Source: Oceanomicrobium pacificus
Lineage (GTDB): Bacteria; Pseudomonadota; Alphaproteobacteria; Rhodobacterales; Rhodobacteraceae
Assembly: GCF_009833495.1 (NCBI RefSeq)
Contig: NZ_WUWG01000001.1
Coordinates: forward strand, 62,001 to 126,000
Reading direction: 5' to 3'
DNA length: 64,000 bases
Shown: piece after piece, positions 38,002 to 48,363 of the stretch
How positions within the stretch are numbered: position 1 is the first letter of the stretch
How the letters are laid out: the number at the start of each line of letters is the position of its first letter
Program-made: the position numbers and the translations under genes
Notes under the pieces: generated by a model
The model's database searches: none
What the model was told of the DNA's origin: nothing
Seen by the model: only the letters and a program-made list of their open reading frames with translations

Positions 38002-38916
38002 TCAATGTCGATTGGTCGCGCCGGATCCAACCATCGCCTGAGCTTCAAACCCCCTCAAACTGCGGCAGGCCATCGGCACGGGTGGTGCGCCGGCGGCGAG
38101 TTCCGGAAACAATTCCTGCAATTCGCTCCGGCTTGCCTCGGGGATGGCGCGCAGGGCCATTTCTCCGGGGTAGAGGGATTCGACAGGCAAGCCCTCGGCC
38201 CAGACGATCTGGTGCGTCCGGCAGGCGAAATGGACGTAGGTGACGGCGCCGTCCGGTTCCGGCCGAGTGATCCGCTCGCCGTCGCACAGATGCACAGCAT
38301 GGGCCAGCACGTCATGGCTGCCGAAACAGAGTTCCGCCCAGGCCGAGCCGATCAGCACCCGATGCTGGGGTGACAGGAATAGCGGGCGCGCGGGACGGCC
38401 CGGCCCGAACCGGTCGGCGGCGATCCGGACCGGCCAAAGCCAGGGTGCTGCCGCGATCCGCCCAGCTTCGAACCTGCGCTCCGCCCGCCAGACAACCGGC
38501 TGGGGACCCGCATCGCGGGTCAGCACCATGTCCCCGACCGAAATCTCCTCGACCCGTCGCAGGCCGTCCGGCGTCGCGATTAATGTGCCCGCGACGAAAC
38601 AGGGCACGGCATCCTCGTCCACCCTGACGCGGACGACCTTGAAGCCGTTATTGCCCTGACCCGGCCCTGTGGAGGCACGTATGACAACGATGATATTGGC
38701 ACCCCCGGGCGGCACATCCGCACCGGGCTCCAGGTTGACCGTCAGGACCCCCAAATCGCTGATCGAAACAGTATAGTCATCCGGCCCCAGCGTTCCGGAA
38801 CTGCTGGAGACAATGAACCAGTCGGCGCCCGTCTTGGACGAAACATACTGGGCGGATGTGCTGTTCTGCCCCGCATCGATGGAAATGGAACTCGGTCCAG
38901 TGATGTTGAGGGCCAT
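38002..38916 (-). CDS. Hint (Hedgehog/intein) domain protein with an N-terminal beta domain
   Basis: A 304-residue protein. Residues 1 to about 105 are Ser/Thr/Gly/Val-rich with alternating hydrophobics (SISIDAGQNSTSAQYVSS, GPDDYTVSISDLGVLTVNLE), suggesting an Ig- or cadherin-like beta sandwich. The Hint domain starts at CFVAGTLIATPDGLRRVEEI with the nucleophilic Cys (about residue 109). VGDMVLTRDAGPQPVVW and LFLSPQHRVLIGS follow, the latter matching the S/TxxH block needed for the N-S acyl shift. No C-terminal intein HN motif or second splice junction is seen, so cleavage rather than splicing is expected. No classical signal peptide is present. Confidence 0.85.
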   Translation of the reverse strand: MALNITGPSSISIDAGQNSTSAQYVSSKTGADWFIVSSSSGTLGPDDYTVSISDLGVLTVNLEPGADVPPGGANIIVVIRASTGPGQGNNGFKVVRVRVDEDAVPCFVAGTLIATPDGLRRVEEISVGDMVLTRDAGPQPVVWRAERRFEAGRIAAAPWLWPVRIAADRFGPGRPARPLFLSPQHRVLIGSAWAELCFGSHDVLAHAVHLCDGERITRPEPDGAVTYVHFACRTHQIVWAEGLPVESLYPGEMALRAIPEASRSELQELFPELAAGAPPVPMACRSLRGFEAQAMVGSGATNRH

Positions 38917-39567: not shown

Positions 39568-42500
39568 TCAGCCCTGCGACAGGGCCGCCAGTGCCGGATG
39601 GTCCGCCATGTCGGCGCTGTGCAGGCCACCGATCAGGTCGGGCAGGTCCGCTTCTCCACGGTCGTCCAGCGCCGCGCGGTCGGCATAGATGCGGGCCAGC
39701 CAGGCCCGCGCGCCCTGTGCTTCGGCCATGGCGGCTGCCTCGTCGAGCCGTGCCTTCGCGCCCGCATCATGCCCGCGCGCCGCGCACAGCCGGGCGGCAA
39801 CACGCAGAACCTCGGGCCCGTAGCAGAGTTGCTGGTCCGCGCGGCAATCGGCCAGCGCGGGCGCCAGCGCGGCCTCGGCATCTTCCAGTTCACCCGCCTC
39901 GATGAAGGACAGCGCCAGCCCGGCCTCGTGAATGGGTGCGGTCAGGCGCAGACCGGCGCCGCCGAGCATCGCCACAGCCTGCATCTGGTCGGGAAGCGCG
40001 GCTGCGCCGCCTTCGAGCTGGCGGCGGGACAGGGACGCCCATGCCGAACCGGCCAGAAGCCAGAAGGGCTGGCCGAGCGTCTCTGCGAGACCCATCGCGT
40101 CGAGAATATCCGACAGCGCGGCCGGCGGGGGCGTGCCATAGGCATGTGGCGCCTTGGAGAAGATGCGCGTATAGGGTTCCAGCGGTTTCAGGTCGAGCGC
40201 CGCCATGTGCCGGTCGATCTTTTCCGACAGGGACAGGAAGCCGGTATAATTGCCGGTGATCCAGCGGCCATGCGCCCCGAAAAGCTGCGCCAGTTGCAAA
40301 CTGTCCATCTGGTAGACGAGAGCCTGCATCCGGTGGGCATCAAGGTCGTAAAGCGCCGCGGTGCGGGCGAGCATCTTTTCCTGCAATGCGAAATCGCCCG
40401 CGGTGAAGGCCGTGACCGAGGCTGCGCTGCAAGCGAGCACCTCCAGCTCGGGATTGTCCTCCGCGATGGCCTGCATCCGCTCGACCAGCACTTCCGCATC
40501 GCGCTGGTCGCCGCGCACCAGCTTGTGCGCCCAGATGCCCCATGCGGTCTGAAACTCGGCCAGCCCGCCAGCTTCGTGTTTCAGGCTGAGTTGGAGGGCT
40601 CGGTCGAATGCCGCGCCCACGGAATCGTCGTTGAAGCCCCGCGACTGGACGAGCAGATTTCCCTGGCTGACGCGTGTGGTGATTTCCAGCTGTTCGCGCG
40701 CCTGTCCCTGTTCGAGCCGCTCCAGCGCGCCTTCGGCCTGCTCCAGCAGCCGCCCGGCCGCTGCCAGATCGCCCGACATGAGGCTGAGTTGCGAGGCCCC
40801 GTTCAGTGCGGGAATGGCGGCGGCGAAATCCTCCGCCCCGAGCAGGTGGTGCGCGGCGATGCCGGGCGCGGCCGCCAAGCCTTCGGGGTCGATACTGTGA
40901 TAGGCGGCAAGCGCCTTGCCGTGCAAAGCGCGCCGGTCGCGTGAATGGAGCGTCTCCAGCACCGCTTCCTGAATGAGCGCATGGTCGAATGTCACGGTGC
41001 CCTTGGGTCCGGACGCGAAAAGCCGCCGCCGGACCAGTTCGGCGATCTGGCCCTGCACGACCTCCTCGGGCTGGCCGATCATCTCGGCCAGAAGCGCGCT
41101 GCGCAACTCGCCGCCGAGAACGGCCGCTGCCTCGACCAGCGGCTGGGCATCCTCGACCCGGTCGAACCGCTCCAGCAGCGCCTCGATCAGGCTCGGCGGG
41201 ATACCCTGTGCAACGCCTCCTTCGGGACGTTCGAGAACGGCTTGCGTGATATGGCGCAGATAGAGCGGCACGCCGCGCGCCTGCGTCACGATCCGGTCGC
41301 GCACCTCTGCCGGCAGGCGGTTGTCGGCGTCGATATGGGCGACCATCGTGGCCGCATCCTTGGCGTCCAGTTCGGCCAAATCGAGCGTCTCGGCCGCGTC
41401 CCCGCCGAACCCCTCCATCAGTTCGGGGCGGCGGGCGTTCAGGATCAGCACCGGCTTGCTGGCGAGCCCCTCTACCAGATCCCGCATCAGGTCGAACGAG
41501 GCCTGATCGATCCAGTGCCCGTCCTCGATGAAAAGGACAGAGGGTGTGTCGGGCACAAGTTCGAGCATCAGGAGCCGCAGCGCCTCGGTGATCCGCTGGG
41601 CACGGACAAGCGGGGCAAGCGGCGTCGGGTCGAGCCCGAGCAGAAGCGACAGGCCCGGCACCACCGCAGGCGGCGCCCATGCCGCCAGCCGTTCGGCCAG
41701 ATCGGTCGGCGCGTCGCCCGGATGCAGGCCAAGCCGTTCGCGGATCATCCGGCGGAAGGGTGCGAAGCTCTGGAACCGGCGGTGCTGCAACCCGCGCAAT
41801 TCGAGGATCAACCCGTCCGGCACGGTCTGGCGCAGGAACTCGCGCACAAGCGTTGTCTTCCCGAACCCGCCGCGGGCCACCACGTCGAGGAGCACCGGCG
41901 CGCCGCCGGCCGCCCGGTCCCACGCCGCGTTCAGACGGGCCAGATCGCCGCGCCGTCCGATCAGGTCCTGCATGTCCACCGGGCGCTCGACCGGATGAGC
42001 AAACCAGACCTGAAGCGGCTCCGACAGGCCCTTGACCTCCCGCGTGCCGCCCGCGTCGAGCGTCACCCGCGCCGGATCGACCTTGCGCACGATATCCTCG
42101 GCCACGGCCACGCGTCCGGCCCCGGCCAGCGCCTGCAACCGCGCCGCCGTGTTGACCGTATCGCCGATGGCGAGCGCTTCCTGCGCCGGCTTGCCCTCGT
42201 GCATCTCGCCGACCATGGTCCAGCCGGCCGCGATCCCGGCGCTGGCGTTCAGCGCATGGCCGTCTGGCACATCCATGGCCTGCACGGCCCGGATCACGCG
42301 ATCGGCCGCCTGGATGGCCAGCTCCGCGCTGTTCTTTACCGCTTCGGGATAGCCGAAATAGGCCAGCACGCCGTCTCCCATGAACCGGGCGACATAGCCG
42401 CCGGCACTGGTGATGACCTCCTGGCACAGTTGCTGGTAGTGGGACACCATGTCGAACATGGCTTCATTGCCAAGCGCCGCCGTCAGGCTGGTCGACTCCG

Positions 42501-42633
42501 ACAGATCGATGAACAGGACAGTCAGGTAACGTGGCCGCGCCCGTCCGGGGTTGAGCAGCTTGGCGCCACAGATGGAACAAAACCGGTCTTCAGCGCGGAC
42601 CGGGTTGGAGCAGGACGGGCATTCGGCAGTCAA
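39568..42633 (-). CDS. Class III adenylate/guanylate cyclase with zinc ribbon, AAA-type ATPase and TPR-like region
   Basis: A signalling protein of about 1021 residues. Order: double-Cys zinc ribbon (CPSC at 5-8, CSIC at 19-22); class III cyclase domain (about 35-190) with metal Asp in LTVLFIDLSEST, second Asp in RFMGDGVLAYFG and GDTVNTAARL, so probably active; an ATPase domain with Walker A ARGGFGKTTLVREF (about 245) and Walker B-like TPSVLFIEDGHWID; then a long helical repeat region (about 600-1015) like MalT/TPR proteins. The TTG start at 42631-42633 overlaps the stop of the upstream gene; no in-frame ATG precedes the cyclase domain, so TTG is preferred. The input signal is unknown. Confidence 0.85.
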   Translation of the reverse strand: MTAECPSCSNPVRAEDRFCSICGAKLLNPGRARPRYLTVLFIDLSESTSLTAALGNEAMFDMVSHYQQLCQEVITSAGGYVARFMGDGVLAYFGYPEAVKNSAELAIQAADRVIRAVQAMDVPDGHALNASAGIAAGWTMVGEMHEGKPAQEALAIGDTVNTAARLQALAGAGRVAVAEDIVRKVDPARVTLDAGGTREVKGLSEPLQVWFAHPVERPVDMQDLIGRRGDLARLNAAWDRAAGGAPVLLDVVARGGFGKTTLVREFLRQTVPDGLILELRGLQHRRFQSFAPFRRMIRERLGLHPGDAPTDLAERLAAWAPPAVVPGLSLLLGLDPTPLAPLVRAQRITEALRLLMLELVPDTPSVLFIEDGHWIDQASFDLMRDLVEGLASKPVLILNARRPELMEGFGGDAAETLDLAELDAKDAATMVAHIDADNRLPAEVRDRIVTQARGVPLYLRHITQAVLERPEGGVAQGIPPSLIEALLERFDRVEDAQPLVEAAAVLGGELRSALLAEMIGQPEEVVQGQIAELVRRRLFASGPKGTVTFDHALIQEAVLETLHSRDRRALHGKALAAYHSIDPEGLAAAPGIAAHHLLGAEDFAAAIPALNGASQLSLMSGDLAAAGRLLEQAEGALERLEQGQAREQLEITTRVSQGNLLVQSRGFNDDSVGAAFDRALQLSLKHEAGGLAEFQTAWGIWAHKLVRGDQRDAEVLVERMQAIAEDNPELEVLACSAASVTAFTAGDFALQEKMLARTAALYDLDAHRMQALVYQMDSLQLAQLFGAHGRWITGNYTGFLSLSEKIDRHMAALDLKPLEPYTRIFSKAPHAYGTPPPAALSDILDAMGLAETLGQPFWLLAGSAWASLSRRQLEGGAAALPDQMQAVAMLGGAGLRLTAPIHEAGLALSFIEAGELEDAEAALAPALADCRADQQLCYGPEVLRVAARLCAARGHDAGAKARLDEAAAMAEAQGARAWLARIYADRAALDDRGEADLPDLIGGLHSADMADHPALAALSQG

Positions 42634-45518
42634 CTCTTTATCTTTCGCAGTGTATCCCTGAGCTCGAAACTTTGCAGCGGATTGTTGATGGTCGCCGCGC
42701 TTGTCAGGAAGAAACCGCCCAGGGGACTGTCTTTTACCGATGGCGGTTTCAATACGCAGGGCTCGAGCCCGAAGCAATCCGAATAGACTTTAATCTCCAT
42801 GTCAAGGGGCTGAACAAGCGCCTGTCCCAGCGAAAAGTCGTAATATGCGTACTGCCACATCCCCAGTTTGTTCTTGTTGACCATTGCCATTTCATAGGCC
42901 GGGCGGACCCGTGCCATCGGCTCATAGTCCTCCGCCCGCGCCTGCGGGCCGGAAAACTTGAACTCGCAGGAGATGATCGGGCTGCCGTCGCGCGGGTCGC
43001 ACACTTCGTAGCAGGAGGCATCCGAACTCATCCGGGCACGCAATTTCGGGAAGCCGTAGCCGTAGACGCCGAGCAGGATCGGCGGCAAGGCATTCAGGTA
43101 GAGCCGCGTCGGGGTGATAAGCGGCGGCATGTCCTGCAACGCGGGGTCGGTGTGGCGCACATAGGGCACCGCGCAAATGAATTCGAGATAATCCATTCCG
43201 ATGGGAAGCAGGTTCGGCCGCACGTCGCGTTGCCGTCCGAAAAGCAGGATGATCGGATGCTGGTCAGGACCGGTCAGGTCCTGCGGCGCCAGTTCCAGCC
43301 CTTCGGGCAGGAGCTTCTCCACTTCAGCGCGCGGGCGACCCAGCATCACCGTCGGGCCCGTCGTCTGGGCCATGCCATAGGCGCCGGACCATGGGAATTT
43401 CGTGTTCTGCGGACGCAGCGTTGTCAATGTCGGGTAGACGGGCTTCGACTTCGGCATCGCGCCCGGCACTTCGTTTTCGCCGACGATCTTCATGTCGACG
43501 CCGGTCAGCCCCTCGGCCGCGCGCAGACCGGACATGGTCGCGGCCTCGACGCAGCCGGCATTGATGCCGGTATAGGTCCAGTCCCCGGCGAGCCAGAGAT
43601 TGTCAAAGCCGCTTTCGTCGGCCCGCAGCCGTGCAGATGTGGAGCCCGGGGCCGACAGGACATAGCGTTCGTTCGGGTCGATATTGCCGCGGAAATATTG
43701 CGCGTCCCACGCGTCGGCCGCCTTCGTCCCTTTCGGCACGCACAGGCTCGACGGTTTGAACTTCCCCTTGGCGTCATAGGCTTTGGGGAAAAGGAACGCG
43801 CCCTCCTTCTCCATCCAGTCGCGGCAGCGGGCGACGACCTCGGCTTTCACGCGGGCCGGATAGCCGTGATCTGTGAACGGCGGGATAACATCGGGATCGG
43901 CGAGCGGTCCGCAGAAATAGGCGATCGAGCCGGGTTTGTTGTCCTCTGGCCAGTCCTCGGTCGGATCGAGATGGGTCATGTCGGCCCATGTGTTCAGATC
44001 GTCGGCATAGGCGGTGAGGATCGAATCCCCGTGCGGCCAGCCCAGATCCTCCACACTGTCCTTGAACCAGAGCTGGAAGCTCTGCGTGCTGTCGGTCTTG
44101 ACCTTGTCGAACATGCGCTTCCAGCGCGGGTCATTGTCGGCCAGATCCTTGCACAGATAGGGCAGCGCGCCGAGCGAGATGCCGAGGATCACCTCGTCGA
44201 AATCCTGCCCGCGCACCAGATCGCGCCTGGCCTTCGGTTCCCAGTCCGACCACCAGCTTTCCAGATTGATGCCGCGCGTCTTCAGCGCCTCCCCCTCTAC
44301 AATCTGGTCATAGAGCGGGTCGGAGGGCCAGCAATCGAGGTCGCCGACGCGCACGAACGGATCGTAGCTGCCGGATTTCAGCGTCACCTGTCGGTCCATG
44401 GAAATGGTCTCGATGGCGGATTTCCGGGCGTCGAGGCCGAGCGCCGTGACCTTGTGGAAGAATTCGAACTTCACCCCGCGCTGTTCCAGGATGCGGTAGA
44501 AGGGGGTGAAGATCGTGTCGCCCATACCGGCGCGCATCTTGTAGAAAATCGCACCCTTGTAGGTGAAGAAGAGCCGGAAACAGCCCCGAATGAACGTGCC
44601 CGCACCGATGGCACGGTTCTCGTCCGTCGTGCGGCCATGCATGAAGCCGAACGCGTAGTCGTAAATCGCCCGGATCAGGCCGCTGTCGAGCGAGGTGTCC
44701 GACGCCCCGTAGCGTTTCAGGAAGGGGGTGATCTCCTCGTCGTCGATCACGTCGAACCCCTGACGGAACACGTCATTCTCCAGCATCCCGCGCATCACCG
44801 CGAAGCCGAGGTCGAGCATGATGCCCGCGCGGCGCAGGTCGTCGTCGAGATCGGCTTCCAGCCCTTCTTCGTCGGTCAGGATGGTGCGGGCAATATCGCG
44901 GTCGTCGGCCATTTCGACGAAAGAGCGGCCCAGATGCGCGCCGAGACGCACCATGTCCTGCGGGTCGTGGTTGGCGGCGTCCTTGGGCATGGCGGCGACA
45001 TGGGCGTTCAACCGCTGCAGGTCACCGGCCCCGCGCCCGCCGGCCTTCGCCTGTGTCTCGGCCACCTCCGTCAGGAATTTCACCAGCATCTGGAAATATT
45101 CGAAGGGCGACAGGGTGACCCCGTCCGATCCGGGATCCGCATCGTTCATCGGCGGTTCCAGCACCCAGGGCTTCCATTCGCCGTTCACCCTGTCGCCGAG
45201 CGCGATATTATTGTGCGGGATGAAGGCCTCGTCGAAGGAATGGTAGACGCCCGGCGTGCCGTTCAACTCGCCCAGCATCTCCTTCATCACCCGGATCGCA
45301 TTGTCATAGAAGCCCGACCAGACATGGAGCCCATGCTCCTCGATCCGCTGGGCGATGGCCGGGTTCCGGCCGCTCGCGCCCTTGCCGCCGAGACGCCAAC
45401 CCATCTGGTAAACGGTCACCTCGTATTTTTCAGCCGCACCCGGCACCGATGTCAGCGCATATGCGGCCGCCATCGCTCCGACGCCACCGCCCAGAACCGC
45501 GATCTTCTTCTTCGCCAT
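42630..45518 (-). CDS. FAD-dependent oxidoreductase fused to an acetoacetate-decarboxylase-like domain
   Basis: A 962-residue protein. Residues 1 to about 690 are an amine-oxidase/phytoene-desaturase-type flavoprotein: KKIAVLGGGVGAMAAAYAL (FAD fold), YQMGWRLGGKGASGRN and, near the end, NLWLAGDWTYTGINAGCVEA (second FAD-binding block). Residues about 730-930 resemble the acetoacetate decarboxylase superfamily: VMLGRPRAEVEKLLPEGL, DYLEFICAVPYVRH, GVYGYGFPKLRARM. No signal peptide or membrane helix. The substrate is unknown; carotenoid- or terpenoid-like chemistry is only suggested by the first half. The stop overlaps the TTG start of the cyclase gene. Confidence 0.75.
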   Translation of the reverse strand: MAKKKIAVLGGGVGAMAAAYALTSVPGAAEKYEVTVYQMGWRLGGKGASGRNPAIAQRIEEHGLHVWSGFYDNAIRVMKEMLGELNGTPGVYHSFDEAFIPHNNIALGDRVNGEWKPWVLEPPMNDADPGSDGVTLSPFEYFQMLVKFLTEVAETQAKAGGRGAGDLQRLNAHVAAMPKDAANHDPQDMVRLGAHLGRSFVEMADDRDIARTILTDEEGLEADLDDDLRRAGIMLDLGFAVMRGMLENDVFRQGFDVIDDEEITPFLKRYGASDTSLDSGLIRAIYDYAFGFMHGRTTDENRAIGAGTFIRGCFRLFFTYKGAIFYKMRAGMGDTIFTPFYRILEQRGVKFEFFHKVTALGLDARKSAIETISMDRQVTLKSGSYDPFVRVGDLDCWPSDPLYDQIVEGEALKTRGINLESWWSDWEPKARRDLVRGQDFDEVILGISLGALPYLCKDLADNDPRWKRMFDKVKTDSTQSFQLWFKDSVEDLGWPHGDSILTAYADDLNTWADMTHLDPTEDWPEDNKPGSIAYFCGPLADPDVIPPFTDHGYPARVKAEVVARCRDWMEKEGAFLFPKAYDAKGKFKPSSLCVPKGTKAADAWDAQYFRGNIDPNERYVLSAPGSTSARLRADESGFDNLWLAGDWTYTGINAGCVEAATMSGLRAAEGLTGVDMKIVGENEVPGAMPKSKPVYPTLTTLRPQNTKFPWSGAYGMAQTTGPTVMLGRPRAEVEKLLPEGLELAPQDLTGPDQHPIILLFGRQRDVRPNLLPIGMDYLEFICAVPYVRHTDPALQDMPPLITPTRLYLNALPPILLGVYGYGFPKLRARMSSDASCYEVCDPRDGSPIISCEFKFSGPQARAEDYEPMARVRPAYEMAMVNKNKLGMWQYAYYDFSLGQALVQPLDMEIKVYSDCFGLEPCVLKPPSVKDSPLGGFFLTSAATINNPLQSFELRDTLRKIKS

Positions 45519-45625
45519 CGAATGCCCCTTTTGCTGTTGCGGGGCACTCTACCGCAACGCGATCCGATGTGAACAGAATTGGTTAACCATTTGACGCCGC
45601 GAGGGACCGCGCCGGTGCTGGCAGC

Positions 45626-45655
45626 AAAAAGGCCGGTCCGCCACGCGAACCGGCC
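45626..45655 (-). terminator. Intrinsic terminator of the small membrane protein gene
   Basis: On the minus strand GGCCGGTTCGC-GTG-GCGGACCGGCC (one mismatch) is followed by TTTTT (45630-45626). It lies 26 bases after the stop at 45682 and insulates the FAD/cyclase operon from upstream transcription. Confidence 0.85.
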
Positions 45656-45681: not shown

Positions 45682-45936
45682 TCAGGTCGGCGGCGCCGGC
45701 GGCGGCGATGCCGGCGTGTCGTCATCATCGTCGTCATTGTTCTGGGTCACGGCATAGGCCACAGCGGCCAGCGCCAGAACCGGGATCACCCAGCCCCAGG
45801 ACCCGGCGGAGGACCCGGCGGGCTCTTCGACCACGACCACTTCCTCGATGGGCTCTTCGAAACTCATGTTGCCGGCCTGCGCGGCCGTGCCGGCCAGAAC
45901 GGCGGCAATGGCGAGGGACGCCTTCAGTTTCATCAT
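45682..45936 (-). CDS. Small exported membrane protein with an acidic, Pro-rich tail
   Basis: An 84-residue protein. A signal peptide (MMKLKASLAIAAVLAGTAAQAG) is followed by an acidic segment (FEEPIEEVVVVEEPAG), one hydrophobic helix (WGWVIPVLALAAVAYAV), six consecutive Asp and a PASPPPAPP tail. No known family is recognised, though small proteins of this design are common in Rhodobacteraceae. A strong inverted repeat overlaps its ribosome-binding site. A terminator follows. Confidence 0.7.
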   Translation of the reverse strand: MMKLKASLAIAAVLAGTAAQAGNMSFEEPIEEVVVVEEPAGSSAGSWGWVIPVLALAAVAYAVTQNNDDDDDDTPASPPPAPPT

Positions 45937-46045: not shown

Positions 46046-47074
46046 TTACGCCGTCAGATCGAGCACGACCTTGTTCGCCGCGCCGCTGCCGATCGCCTCG
46101 AACCCGTCCGCGAAACGTTCGAACGGCAATGTGTGGGAGATGACGGGCGCCACATCGAGCCCACTTTCCAGCATCCCGTACATCTTGTGCCAGGTCTCGA
46201 ACATGCGCCGGCCATAGATGCCCTTCATCGACAGGCCCTTGAAGATCGCCTTGTTCAGGTCGACCTCGGGCCGTTTCCCGAAAAGGCCCAGAAGCGCGAT
46301 ATTGCCGCCGGTGATCATCGCCTCGATCAGCGCATCGAGCGCGGGTGCCGCGCCCGACATCTCGAGCCCCACATCGAACCCTTCCCGCATGCCGATCTCG
46401 GTCATCACATCGCGCAGGTCCTCGCGGTCGGCGCGGACCGTGCGACTGGCGCCCATCCGCGAGGCGAGTGCCAGACGGTCGTCGTTGAGGTCAGTCACGA
46501 CGATGCGGCGCGCGCCCACATGGCGGCAGACCGCAGCCGCCATGCAGCCGATCGGACCCGCCCCGGTGATGAGCACATCCTCTCCGGTCAGATCGAAGGC
46601 CAACGCGGTGTGGACCGCATTGCCGAGCGGGTCGAGGATCGAGGCAATATCGTCCGACACGAAATCGGGCAGCGGGCGCACATTGGCGGCGGGCAGGACC
46701 AGATAATCGGCGAATGCACCAGGCACATTGACCCCGATGGAGCGCGTCCGCGCGCAGATATGCGCTCGGCCGGTCTGGCAGTTGCGGCAGCTGCCGCAGG
46801 GAATATGCCCCTCGCCCGAGACACGCTGGCCCGGCTCCAGTCCGGTCACGCCCGCGCCCACCGCGTCGATCACACCGGCATATTCATGGCCCACGACCAT
46901 CGGCACCGGGATCGTCGCCTCGGCCCAGGCATCCCATTTCCAGATATGCATGTCCGTCCCGCAAATCGACACTTTGCGAATGCGGATGCGCACCTCGCCC
47001 GGTCCCGGCTCGGGCATGGCCACATCGACCAGATCGAGGCCCGGACCGGCGGTCTGTTTGACAAGCGCCCTCAT
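46046..47074 (-). CDS. tdh: L-threonine 3-dehydrogenase
   Basis: Zinc-dependent medium-chain dehydrogenase that oxidises threonine to 2-amino-3-ketobutyrate using NAD+. The length of 342 residues is normal. Catalytic zinc ligands: [13 protein letters not shown] and GHEYAG; structural zinc cysteines: [15 protein letters not shown]. The NAD fold is [30 protein letters not shown] is a Tdh feature. The start overlaps the kbl stop by four bases, linking the two steps of threonine-to-glycine conversion. Confidence 0.96.
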
Positions 47075-48258
47075 GCGATCACCCCCAGCTTGCGCCCGGC
47101 AGCCGTGAAGGCGGCGATGGCGCGGTCGATCTCCGCCGGACTGTGGGCCGCGTTCATCTGCGTGCGGATCCGGGCCTGTCCCTTGGGCACGACCGGATAG
47201 GAGAAGGCGGTCACGTATATGCCGGCGCTGCGCAACTCGGCAGCCATGTCTGCTGCCAGTCGGGCCTCTCCGAGCATCACCGGTATGATCGCATGTTCGC
47301 CGGGCACAAGATCGAAGCCGGCCGCTTCCATGCCCGCGCGGAACCGTTTGGCATTGTCGGCCAGACGGGCGCGGGACCCGGCGCTGTCCTGCACCAGTTG
47401 CAGCGCGCGGCGCGTGGCCTCCACCACGGCCGGCGGCAGCGCGTTGGAAAAGAGGTAGGGCCGCGCCCGCTGGCGCAACATGTCGACGACAGGCTGCGAT
47501 GCGGCCACATAGCCGCCCGCCGCGCCGCCCAGCGCCTTGCCGAACGTGCCGGTCAGGATCTGAACCCGGTCGGCCACACCCCAATGGTCGGGCGTGCCCG
47601 CGCCGCGCGGCCCGACAAAGCCGACCGCATGGCTGTCATCGACCATCACGATCGCATCGTGGCGTTCGGCCAGATCGCAGATCGCCGGCAGGTTGGCGAG
47701 AATCCCGTCCATCGAGAAGACCCCGTCGGTGACGATGAGCCGCGTCCGGGCGTCGGCGGCCTCCTTCAGGCGCGCCTCCAGCTCGGCCATGTCATTGTTG
47801 GCATAGCGGTAACGCCGCGCCTTGCAGAGCCGCACACCGTCGATGATCGACGCATGGTTGAGCGCATCGGAGATGATCGCATCCTCCGGCCCCAGCAGGC
47901 TTTCAAACAGCCCGGCATTCGCATCGAAGCAGGAGGCAAACAGGATCGTGTCCTCGGTCCCGAGGAACGCCGACAGTTCCGCTTCCAGCGCCTTGTGAAT
48001 GTCTTGCGTGCCGCAGATGAACCGCACCGACGCCATCCCCAGCCCGTGGCTGTCGATCGCGGCTTTGGCGGCGTCGCGCAGCACCGGATCATTGGCAAGG
48101 CCCAGATAGTTGTTGGCGCAGAAATTGAGGAGCGCGCCTGCGTCCGTGCGGACCTCCGCCGCCTGCGGCGAACGGATCGCAAGCTCGGACTTGGTCAGCC
48201 CCTGCGCTTCAATATCGGCCAGTTCCGCCCGCAGGCGCTCGTCGAGGGTCCGGGACAT
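47071..48258 (-). CDS. kbl: 2-amino-3-ketobutyrate CoA ligase (glycine C-acetyltransferase)
   Basis: PLP enzyme that cleaves 2-amino-3-ketobutyrate with CoA to glycine and acetyl-CoA. The 395-residue product matches E. coli Kbl in length. Key segments: [31 protein letters not shown] and the PLP lysine in [21 protein letters not shown] 48256-48258 gives [13 protein letters not shown]; the longer upstream frame is not conserved-looking. Confidence 0.96.
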
Positions 48259-48363
48259 GGGTGCCGCACTCCTTTGCTGTCGATGGTCACCACCTGAGGG
48301 CCGCGCGAAGTCGCGCGTCCGCAAGTCTAGGCTTCGCTGCCTGCCTTGTCAGGCGTGATTCGT

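Follow-up and report, generated by a model that had tools for sequence, protein, structure and literature searches.

Do a flavoenzyme and a nucleotide cyclase that share an operon form one system, in which a substrate or product of the enzyme is reported through a cyclic nucleotide? The question is raised by two genes on the minus strand of the window, i.e., the whole 64,000-nucleotide stretch of DNA that was analyzed.

Gene layout

The initial annotation described two ORFs of 962 and 1021 residues, the second with a TTG start overlapped by the stop of the first. This description was borne out, as both frames are open and the overlap can be read directly from the junction (AAG AGT TGA / TTG ACT). 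The main features of the locus are:

42630..45518, minus strand: gene 1, flavoprotein-acetoacetate decarboxylase (ADC)-like fusion of 962 aa with an ATG start (open ORF; homologues aligned)
39568..42633, minus strand: gene 2, zinc ribbon-class III cyclase-AAA_16 ATPase-presumed helical repeat protein of 1021 aa with a TTG start (open ORF)
42630..42633, minus strand: TTGA, 4-nt overlap of the gene 1 TGA stop and the gene 2 TTG start
45546..45573, minus strand: sigma-70-like promoter candidate 5' of gene 1, TTCACA-16-TAGAGT (9/12 matches, consensus only)
45626..45655, minus strand: terminator-like hairpin with T-run, GGCCGGT...ACCGGCC TTTTT, 3' of the upstream 84-aa gene (by eye)

A mechanical ORF finder places the start of gene 2 further out, at a TTG at 42777. 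The alignment of eight gene 2 homologues begins at the internal TTG, which is therefore taken as the correct start. Overlaps of 4 nt between the two genes are also found in loci L015, L016, L027, L030-L033, L038, L048 and L071 of our survey. The gene pair looks like its own transcription unit, since the promoter candidate and the terminator-like hairpin, which is absent from the list of the terminator scanner because its loop is too long, set it off from the small gene upstream. That gene (45682-45936, minus strand) encodes a predicted exported protein of 84 aa, whose tail is rich in Asp and Pro. Further upstream, 46046-48324 (minus strand) holds threonine dehydrogenase and glycine C-acetyltransferase genes of ordinary threonine catabolism. 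The next minus-strand gene past the pair, at 38002-38916, has a product of 304 aa in which Hint_2 is strongly matched (E 8.8e-50).

Gene 1 joins a flavoprotein to an ADC fold

The gene 1 protein consists of two domains and a linker:

43491..45512, minus strand: flavoprotein domain, residues ~3-676, phytoene-desaturase-like fold (model pLDDT 88.1; VIA Z 28.8)
43389..43466, minus strand: flexible linker, residues ~685-710 (pLDDT <50 at 685-703 and 707-710)
42633..43409, minus strand: ADC-fold domain, residues ~704-962 (AlphaFold model pLDDT 94.4; Z 20.1 to 3cmb)
43044..43046, minus strand: codon of K825, which corresponds to the Schiff-base lysine of ADC (unchanged in 39/39 aligned ADC-like domains)

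The Pfam families NAD_binding_8 and Amino_oxidase exceed their cut-offs in the gene 1 protein, and the flavoprotein half has the FAD Rossmann fold with both N- and C-terminal FAD motifs. In the homologue alignment, GGGVGA and GWRLGGK near the N-terminus and LAGDW...GINAGCVEAA near the end of the domain are invariant or nearly so. A sequence search of solved structures with the single fusion protein gave no match. At the level of structure, the closest solved relative is rice phytoene desaturase (5mog; Z 28.8 over 447 residues, 3.0 A), followed by a next match at Z 23.8 and, behind it, amine oxidases, protoporphyrinogen oxidase and renalase. A score far below the equivalog cut-off (TIGR03467, 51.7 vs 283 bits) speaks against identity with the hydroxysqualene dehydroxylase HpnE. 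Because the flavoprotein half resembles phytoene desaturase, we would guess that its substrate is hydrophobic, such as a polyene, an isoprenoid or a fatty acid. Separately, a gene annotated as outer membrane protein transport protein, which we take to be FadL-type, lies beside the Azospirillum flavoenzymes (L025, 13958-15337) and is a hint of a hydrophobic substrate.

The assignment of the C-terminal half required fold prediction, since the window protein scores below the Pfam gathering threshold for PF06314 (14.1 vs 29.8 bits, E 0.033); the relative at L086 exceeds this cut-off with 34.5 bits. The prediction (model m068ed1c7c8e5) covered the C-terminal 272 residues and matched twelve ADC-superfamily entries at Z 18.3-20.1, with the next unrelated entry at 6.4. 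The initial annotation had called this half decarboxylase-like, a claim that an unrelated fold would have contradicted, and the ADC fold of the model confirms it. K825 aligns with the first lysine of the GFPKK motif in solved ADC-family proteins, and alignment columns K135 and Y87/E89, which include the YxE glutamate, are invariant in the 39 ADC-like domains and match the YxE of solved family members. The second lysine, which perturbs the pKa in true acetoacetate decarboxylase, is absent, as this position is leucine in the window and variable in relatives. Decarboxylation is merely one possible chemistry for this domain because the superfamily also includes MppR and a Streptomyces aldolase-dehydratase. 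The same genome carries a separate, clear acetoacetate decarboxylase gene that is unlinked to the window (G000:C3:48476-49177, listed under L001; E 9e-58).

Gene 2 is probably an active class III cyclase

The following regions were delimited in the gene 2 protein:

42556..42627, minus strand: zinc ribbon, residues 3-26, with four Cys (Zn_ribbon_3 E 1.6e-5, under the curated Pfam cut-off)
41986..42534, minus strand: class III cyclase, residues 34-216, with D43, D87, N161 and R165 (Guanylate_cyc E 6.6e-12; PDB relatives)
41443..41964, minus strand: AAA_16 ATPase, residues 224-397, Walker A ARGGFGKT (AAA_16 E 3.3e-17)
39604..40716, minus strand: conserved C-terminal region, residues ~640-1010, presumed helical sensor repeats (kept across partners)

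The domain composition given by the initial annotation stands in most parts, i.e., a zinc ribbon just under the cut-off, a cyclase with an apparently intact active site and an ATPase. The P-loop domain agrees with a STAND-type signal ATPase. As to the winged-helix domain and TPR sensor of that type, neither TPR nor any other Pfam repeat was called in the window protein, and the C-terminal region is kept across partners. The metal-binding aspartates are present in 48/48 surveyed cyclase domains and the arginine in 47/48, while the transition-state Asn is kept in 27/48, including the window, and lost in the other 21/48. Judged by these residues, gene 2 probably encodes an active class III cyclase. 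The identity of the cyclic nucleotide is uncertain because the Asn is often lost and the base-selecting residues vary: relatives have any of K, E, Q and R at position 83, and the window protein has R83 and L154.

The two genes form a conserved pair

The enzyme is present in 8/198 genomes of the same family, window included. In the seven other genomes, and in one more found via the cyclase, the cyclase-ATPase gene adjoins every full-length fusion, and the flanks otherwise differ. One of these genomes has a shorter flavoprotein that lacks the ADC domain and is not adjoined by a cyclase.

A search for related loci with the single window protein found none, and a family-alignment search gave 538 relatives, from which 80 loci in several phyla were kept. 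Among 49 fusions in this survey, 47 are accompanied by a cyclase/ATPase partner at the same locus, and in 44 the partner lies directly 3' on the same strand, with its conserved domains beginning 15-169 bp past the enzyme stop (except L049, which is cut by the contig end). The partner appears as two ORFs at L060, one for the cyclase and one for the ATPase-repeat part, lies upstream of the fusion at L079 and L082, and adjoins it with a C-terminal cyclase domain at L089. The two fusions without a partner are L036, at a contig end, and L076, which has a Polyangium arrangement. The pair is therefore not a rare coincidence, which would have spoken against the initial annotation, and the operon linkage it proposed is upheld by the 44/49 loci.

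The association can also be seen from the side of the cyclase. When 292 genomes were searched with the window cyclase alone, two strong matches other than itself came up, both beside a fusion. Linked cyclases score at least 1170 bits and unlinked ones at most 573 bits with a profile, a gap that is partly circular as the profile was built from linked cyclases, so that the single-sequence search is the fair test. The distance matrices of enzyme and partner are strongly correlated (Mantel r 0.92, 0/2000 permutations), to which shared vertical descent contributes. Collectively, these results show that gene 1 and gene 2 are a conserved and tightly linked pair in scattered genomes with differing surroundings. 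The gene order is far beyond chance, since dozens of genomes share it in differing contexts, and the coupling of the genes is well supported.

A Crp/Fnr-type protein as proposed messenger reader

A Crp/Fnr-type gene is present in 27/49 survey loci, often directly after the cyclase. The phosphate cassette for cyclic-nucleotide binding was compared in 30 linked Crp/Fnr sequences, where RS is found in 30/30 and GE in 25/30; five Aliiroseovarius proteins carry GD in place of GE. In the public record of one such plasmid, the gene is independently annotated as a Crp/Fnr family regulator. No linked Crp/Fnr gene is found in the window, and the proteins of its genome that best match a linked Crp share only 23-30% identity with it.

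Possible Crp sites, with the exact sequence TGTG-N8-CACA, occur 5' of the enzyme gene in 4/26 Crp-linked loci (shuffles: mean 0.1, maximum 1), a count that represents about two independent lineages for a motif that was picked post hoc as the only one standing out in the operator search. The sites are those of L019 (at -173) and the related L046, L057 and L060; the window contains none. The proposal that enzyme and cyclic-nucleotide signaling belong to one system is supported, and the linked Crp/Fnr genes are its strongest independent sign.

Proposed circuit

The best reading of these observations is that the gene pair works as a single cassette, a cyclic-nucleotide circuit that is linked to a metabolite and read by Crp. 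We give this reading about an even chance of being correct. Counting against it are the lack of a linked Crp/Fnr gene in the window, the variable residues of the cyclase active site and the sparse signaling genes in an independent, mostly myxobacterial sample described below. The flavoprotein would oxidize or desaturate a hydrophobic substrate, probably polyene-, isoprenoid- or fatty-acid-like, and the ADC-like domain may act on a carbonyl intermediate via a lysine Schiff base. Substrate or product of the enzyme pair would then bind the ATPase/helical-repeat region of gene 2. There is a precedent in MalT, an ATPase with a helical sensor region encoded beside a metabolic operon, to which maltotriose binds. 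Binding of the ligand would turn the cyclase on, and the gene 2 protein would act as a receptor for the metabolite that answers with a second messenger. The cyclic nucleotide would activate a Crp/Fnr protein, which is linked in many relatives and presumably unlinked in the window genome, and Crp would adjust transcription, probably including that of the pair's own operon. Ligand, reaction and direction of control are inferred.

Relatives in other phyla and alternative explanations

In distant relatives of the enzyme the ADC-like part is C-terminal, N-terminal (L086) or encoded by a separate neighboring gene, and the signaling genes beside these relatives differ. They include kinase-ATPase-GAF-histidine kinases (L067, L025, L084), a kinase-ATPase-GAF-cyclase (L073), kinase-ATPases (L081, L083, L091), 7TMR-DISM histidine kinases (L086, L102, L105), 7TMR-DISM diguanylate cyclases (L090, L093) and kinases with PD40 repeats (L077, L088). 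In the 78 loci analyzed, 66/154 rank 1 positions hold a signaling gene, vs 23/667 at ranks 3-8. An independent sample of 22 loci, mostly myxobacterial, has signaling genes within two genes of the enzyme in 9/22, and at ranks 1-2 they take 14/86 positions vs 8/164 further out (Fisher p 0.004). It is thus ruled out that every relative is linked to signaling, and the enzymes can function without signaling genes since only 9/22 of the independent relatives have them close by. The association between enzyme and signaling is real, but beyond the fusion clade it is not a requirement.

The linked signaling output varies around enzymes that remain the same, and in the fusion clade enzyme and receptor are closely linked. 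This might be explained by an enzyme pair that makes a dedicated, possibly diffusible signal solely for the linked receptor, with receivers swapped in evolution, and the 7TMR-DISM sensors, which presumably read extracytoplasmic ligands, would fit such a role. However, a linked receptor is missing in many distant relatives, and no exporter was identified in linkage. In several genomes, moreover, flavoenzymes number two to four, in tandem or dispersed, which is more like a metabolic pathway. We regard this explanation as unlikely, though it is the best of the alternatives. In its broad form, the flavoenzyme-ADC pair would be a portable synthase of an undescribed small-molecule signal, used in several phyla with interchangeable receivers (cyclase-ATPase with Crp, kinase-ATPase-histidine kinase, 7TMR-DISM histidine kinase and diguanylate cyclase), a proposal that we consider speculative and rather doubtful. 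As a separate observation, L074, L080, L081, L155, L157 and L159, in planctomycete, acidobacterial, myxobacterial and proteobacterial records, hold two or three flavoenzyme paralogues in tandem, in several cases together with an ADC-like gene, and these could belong to a multi-step pathway.

The variety of sensors can also be read as ordinary regulation, where the signaling protein senses an unrelated cue, e.g., stress, and switches a catabolic or protective enzyme operon without feedback from a metabolite. Interchangeable sensors with input domains such as GAF, PAS, 7TMR-DISM and PD40 fit varied cues acting on one enzyme module, and a few loci have Crp-like sites 5' of the operon. However, one receptor subfamily tracks one enzyme subfamily in the fusion clade, and the near-constant position on the same transcript, often with overlapping frames, is more than shared control needs; we find this reading improbable. 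What separates these readings is whether the product of the enzyme, its substrate or an unrelated cue is sensed. A conflict or anti-phage system, with the ATPase-cyclase as sensor of invasion and the flavoenzyme-ADC protein as effector, is very improbable: the patchy distribution within the family and weak matches of PycC models to the cyclase domain would suit it, but these matches span only the generic cyclase domain, the enzyme has no PADLOC match, no Pycsar effector was identified beside the genes, the inspected surroundings are unlike defense islands, and a two-domain enzyme of biosynthetic type would be an odd effector.

Significance and comparison with known systems

No paper describing the fusion, the gene pair or the linkage was found in openly licensed full text, although such an absence is weak evidence. 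As all component folds are already known and the combination was not found described, we consider the pair a new enzyme-receptor combination built from known parts. If the metabolite-linked circuit is correct, it would be a conserved circuit whose enzyme, receptor, and maker and reader of the messenger are all identifiable from neighboring genes. A widespread flavoenzyme/ADC pair that has no name yet would also gain a biological role, as would one subfamily of the cyclase-ATPase proteins, which are very common but for most of which no ligand is known.

Gene 1 shares its FAD fold with plant-type phytoene desaturase, zeta-carotene desaturase and HpnE, and has weak matches to HpnE and desaturase profiles. 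It differs from them in a domain of ~680 residues with extra helical segments, in the added ADC domain and in scores far under the equivalog cut-offs. With the acetoacetate decarboxylase superfamily (PF06314: ADC, MppR, the Sbi00515 aldolase-dehydratase and Swit_4259) it has in common the fold, the position of the Schiff-base lysine and the YxE glutamate. In contrast to the ADC of this family, domains of the gene 1 type are joined to either end of a flavoenzyme or encoded apart from it, and lack the adjacent second lysine.

For gene 2, Pycsar cyclases (PycC) share the class III cyclase domain, but in gene 2 this domain is joined to an ATPase and repeats. Membership in Pycsar was rejected, as the neighbor is a flavoenzyme-ADC fusion, with neither a PADLOC match nor an adjoining Pycsar effector. 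The TOMM system kinase/cyclase fusions (TIGR03903) have the same order of cyclase, ATPase and helical repeats over residues 35-976 of gene 2. However, gene 2 has no kinase domain and its partner is not a TOMM peptide system; the score of 240 bits vs a cut-off of 706 bits, with a match that begins only at position 286 of TIGR03903, speaks against this identity. MalT-type signal-transduction ATPases resemble gene 2 in that the ATPase precedes a helical sensor region and a metabolic operon lies alongside, but where these proteins end in a LuxR DNA-binding domain, the output of gene 2 is a nucleotide cyclase.
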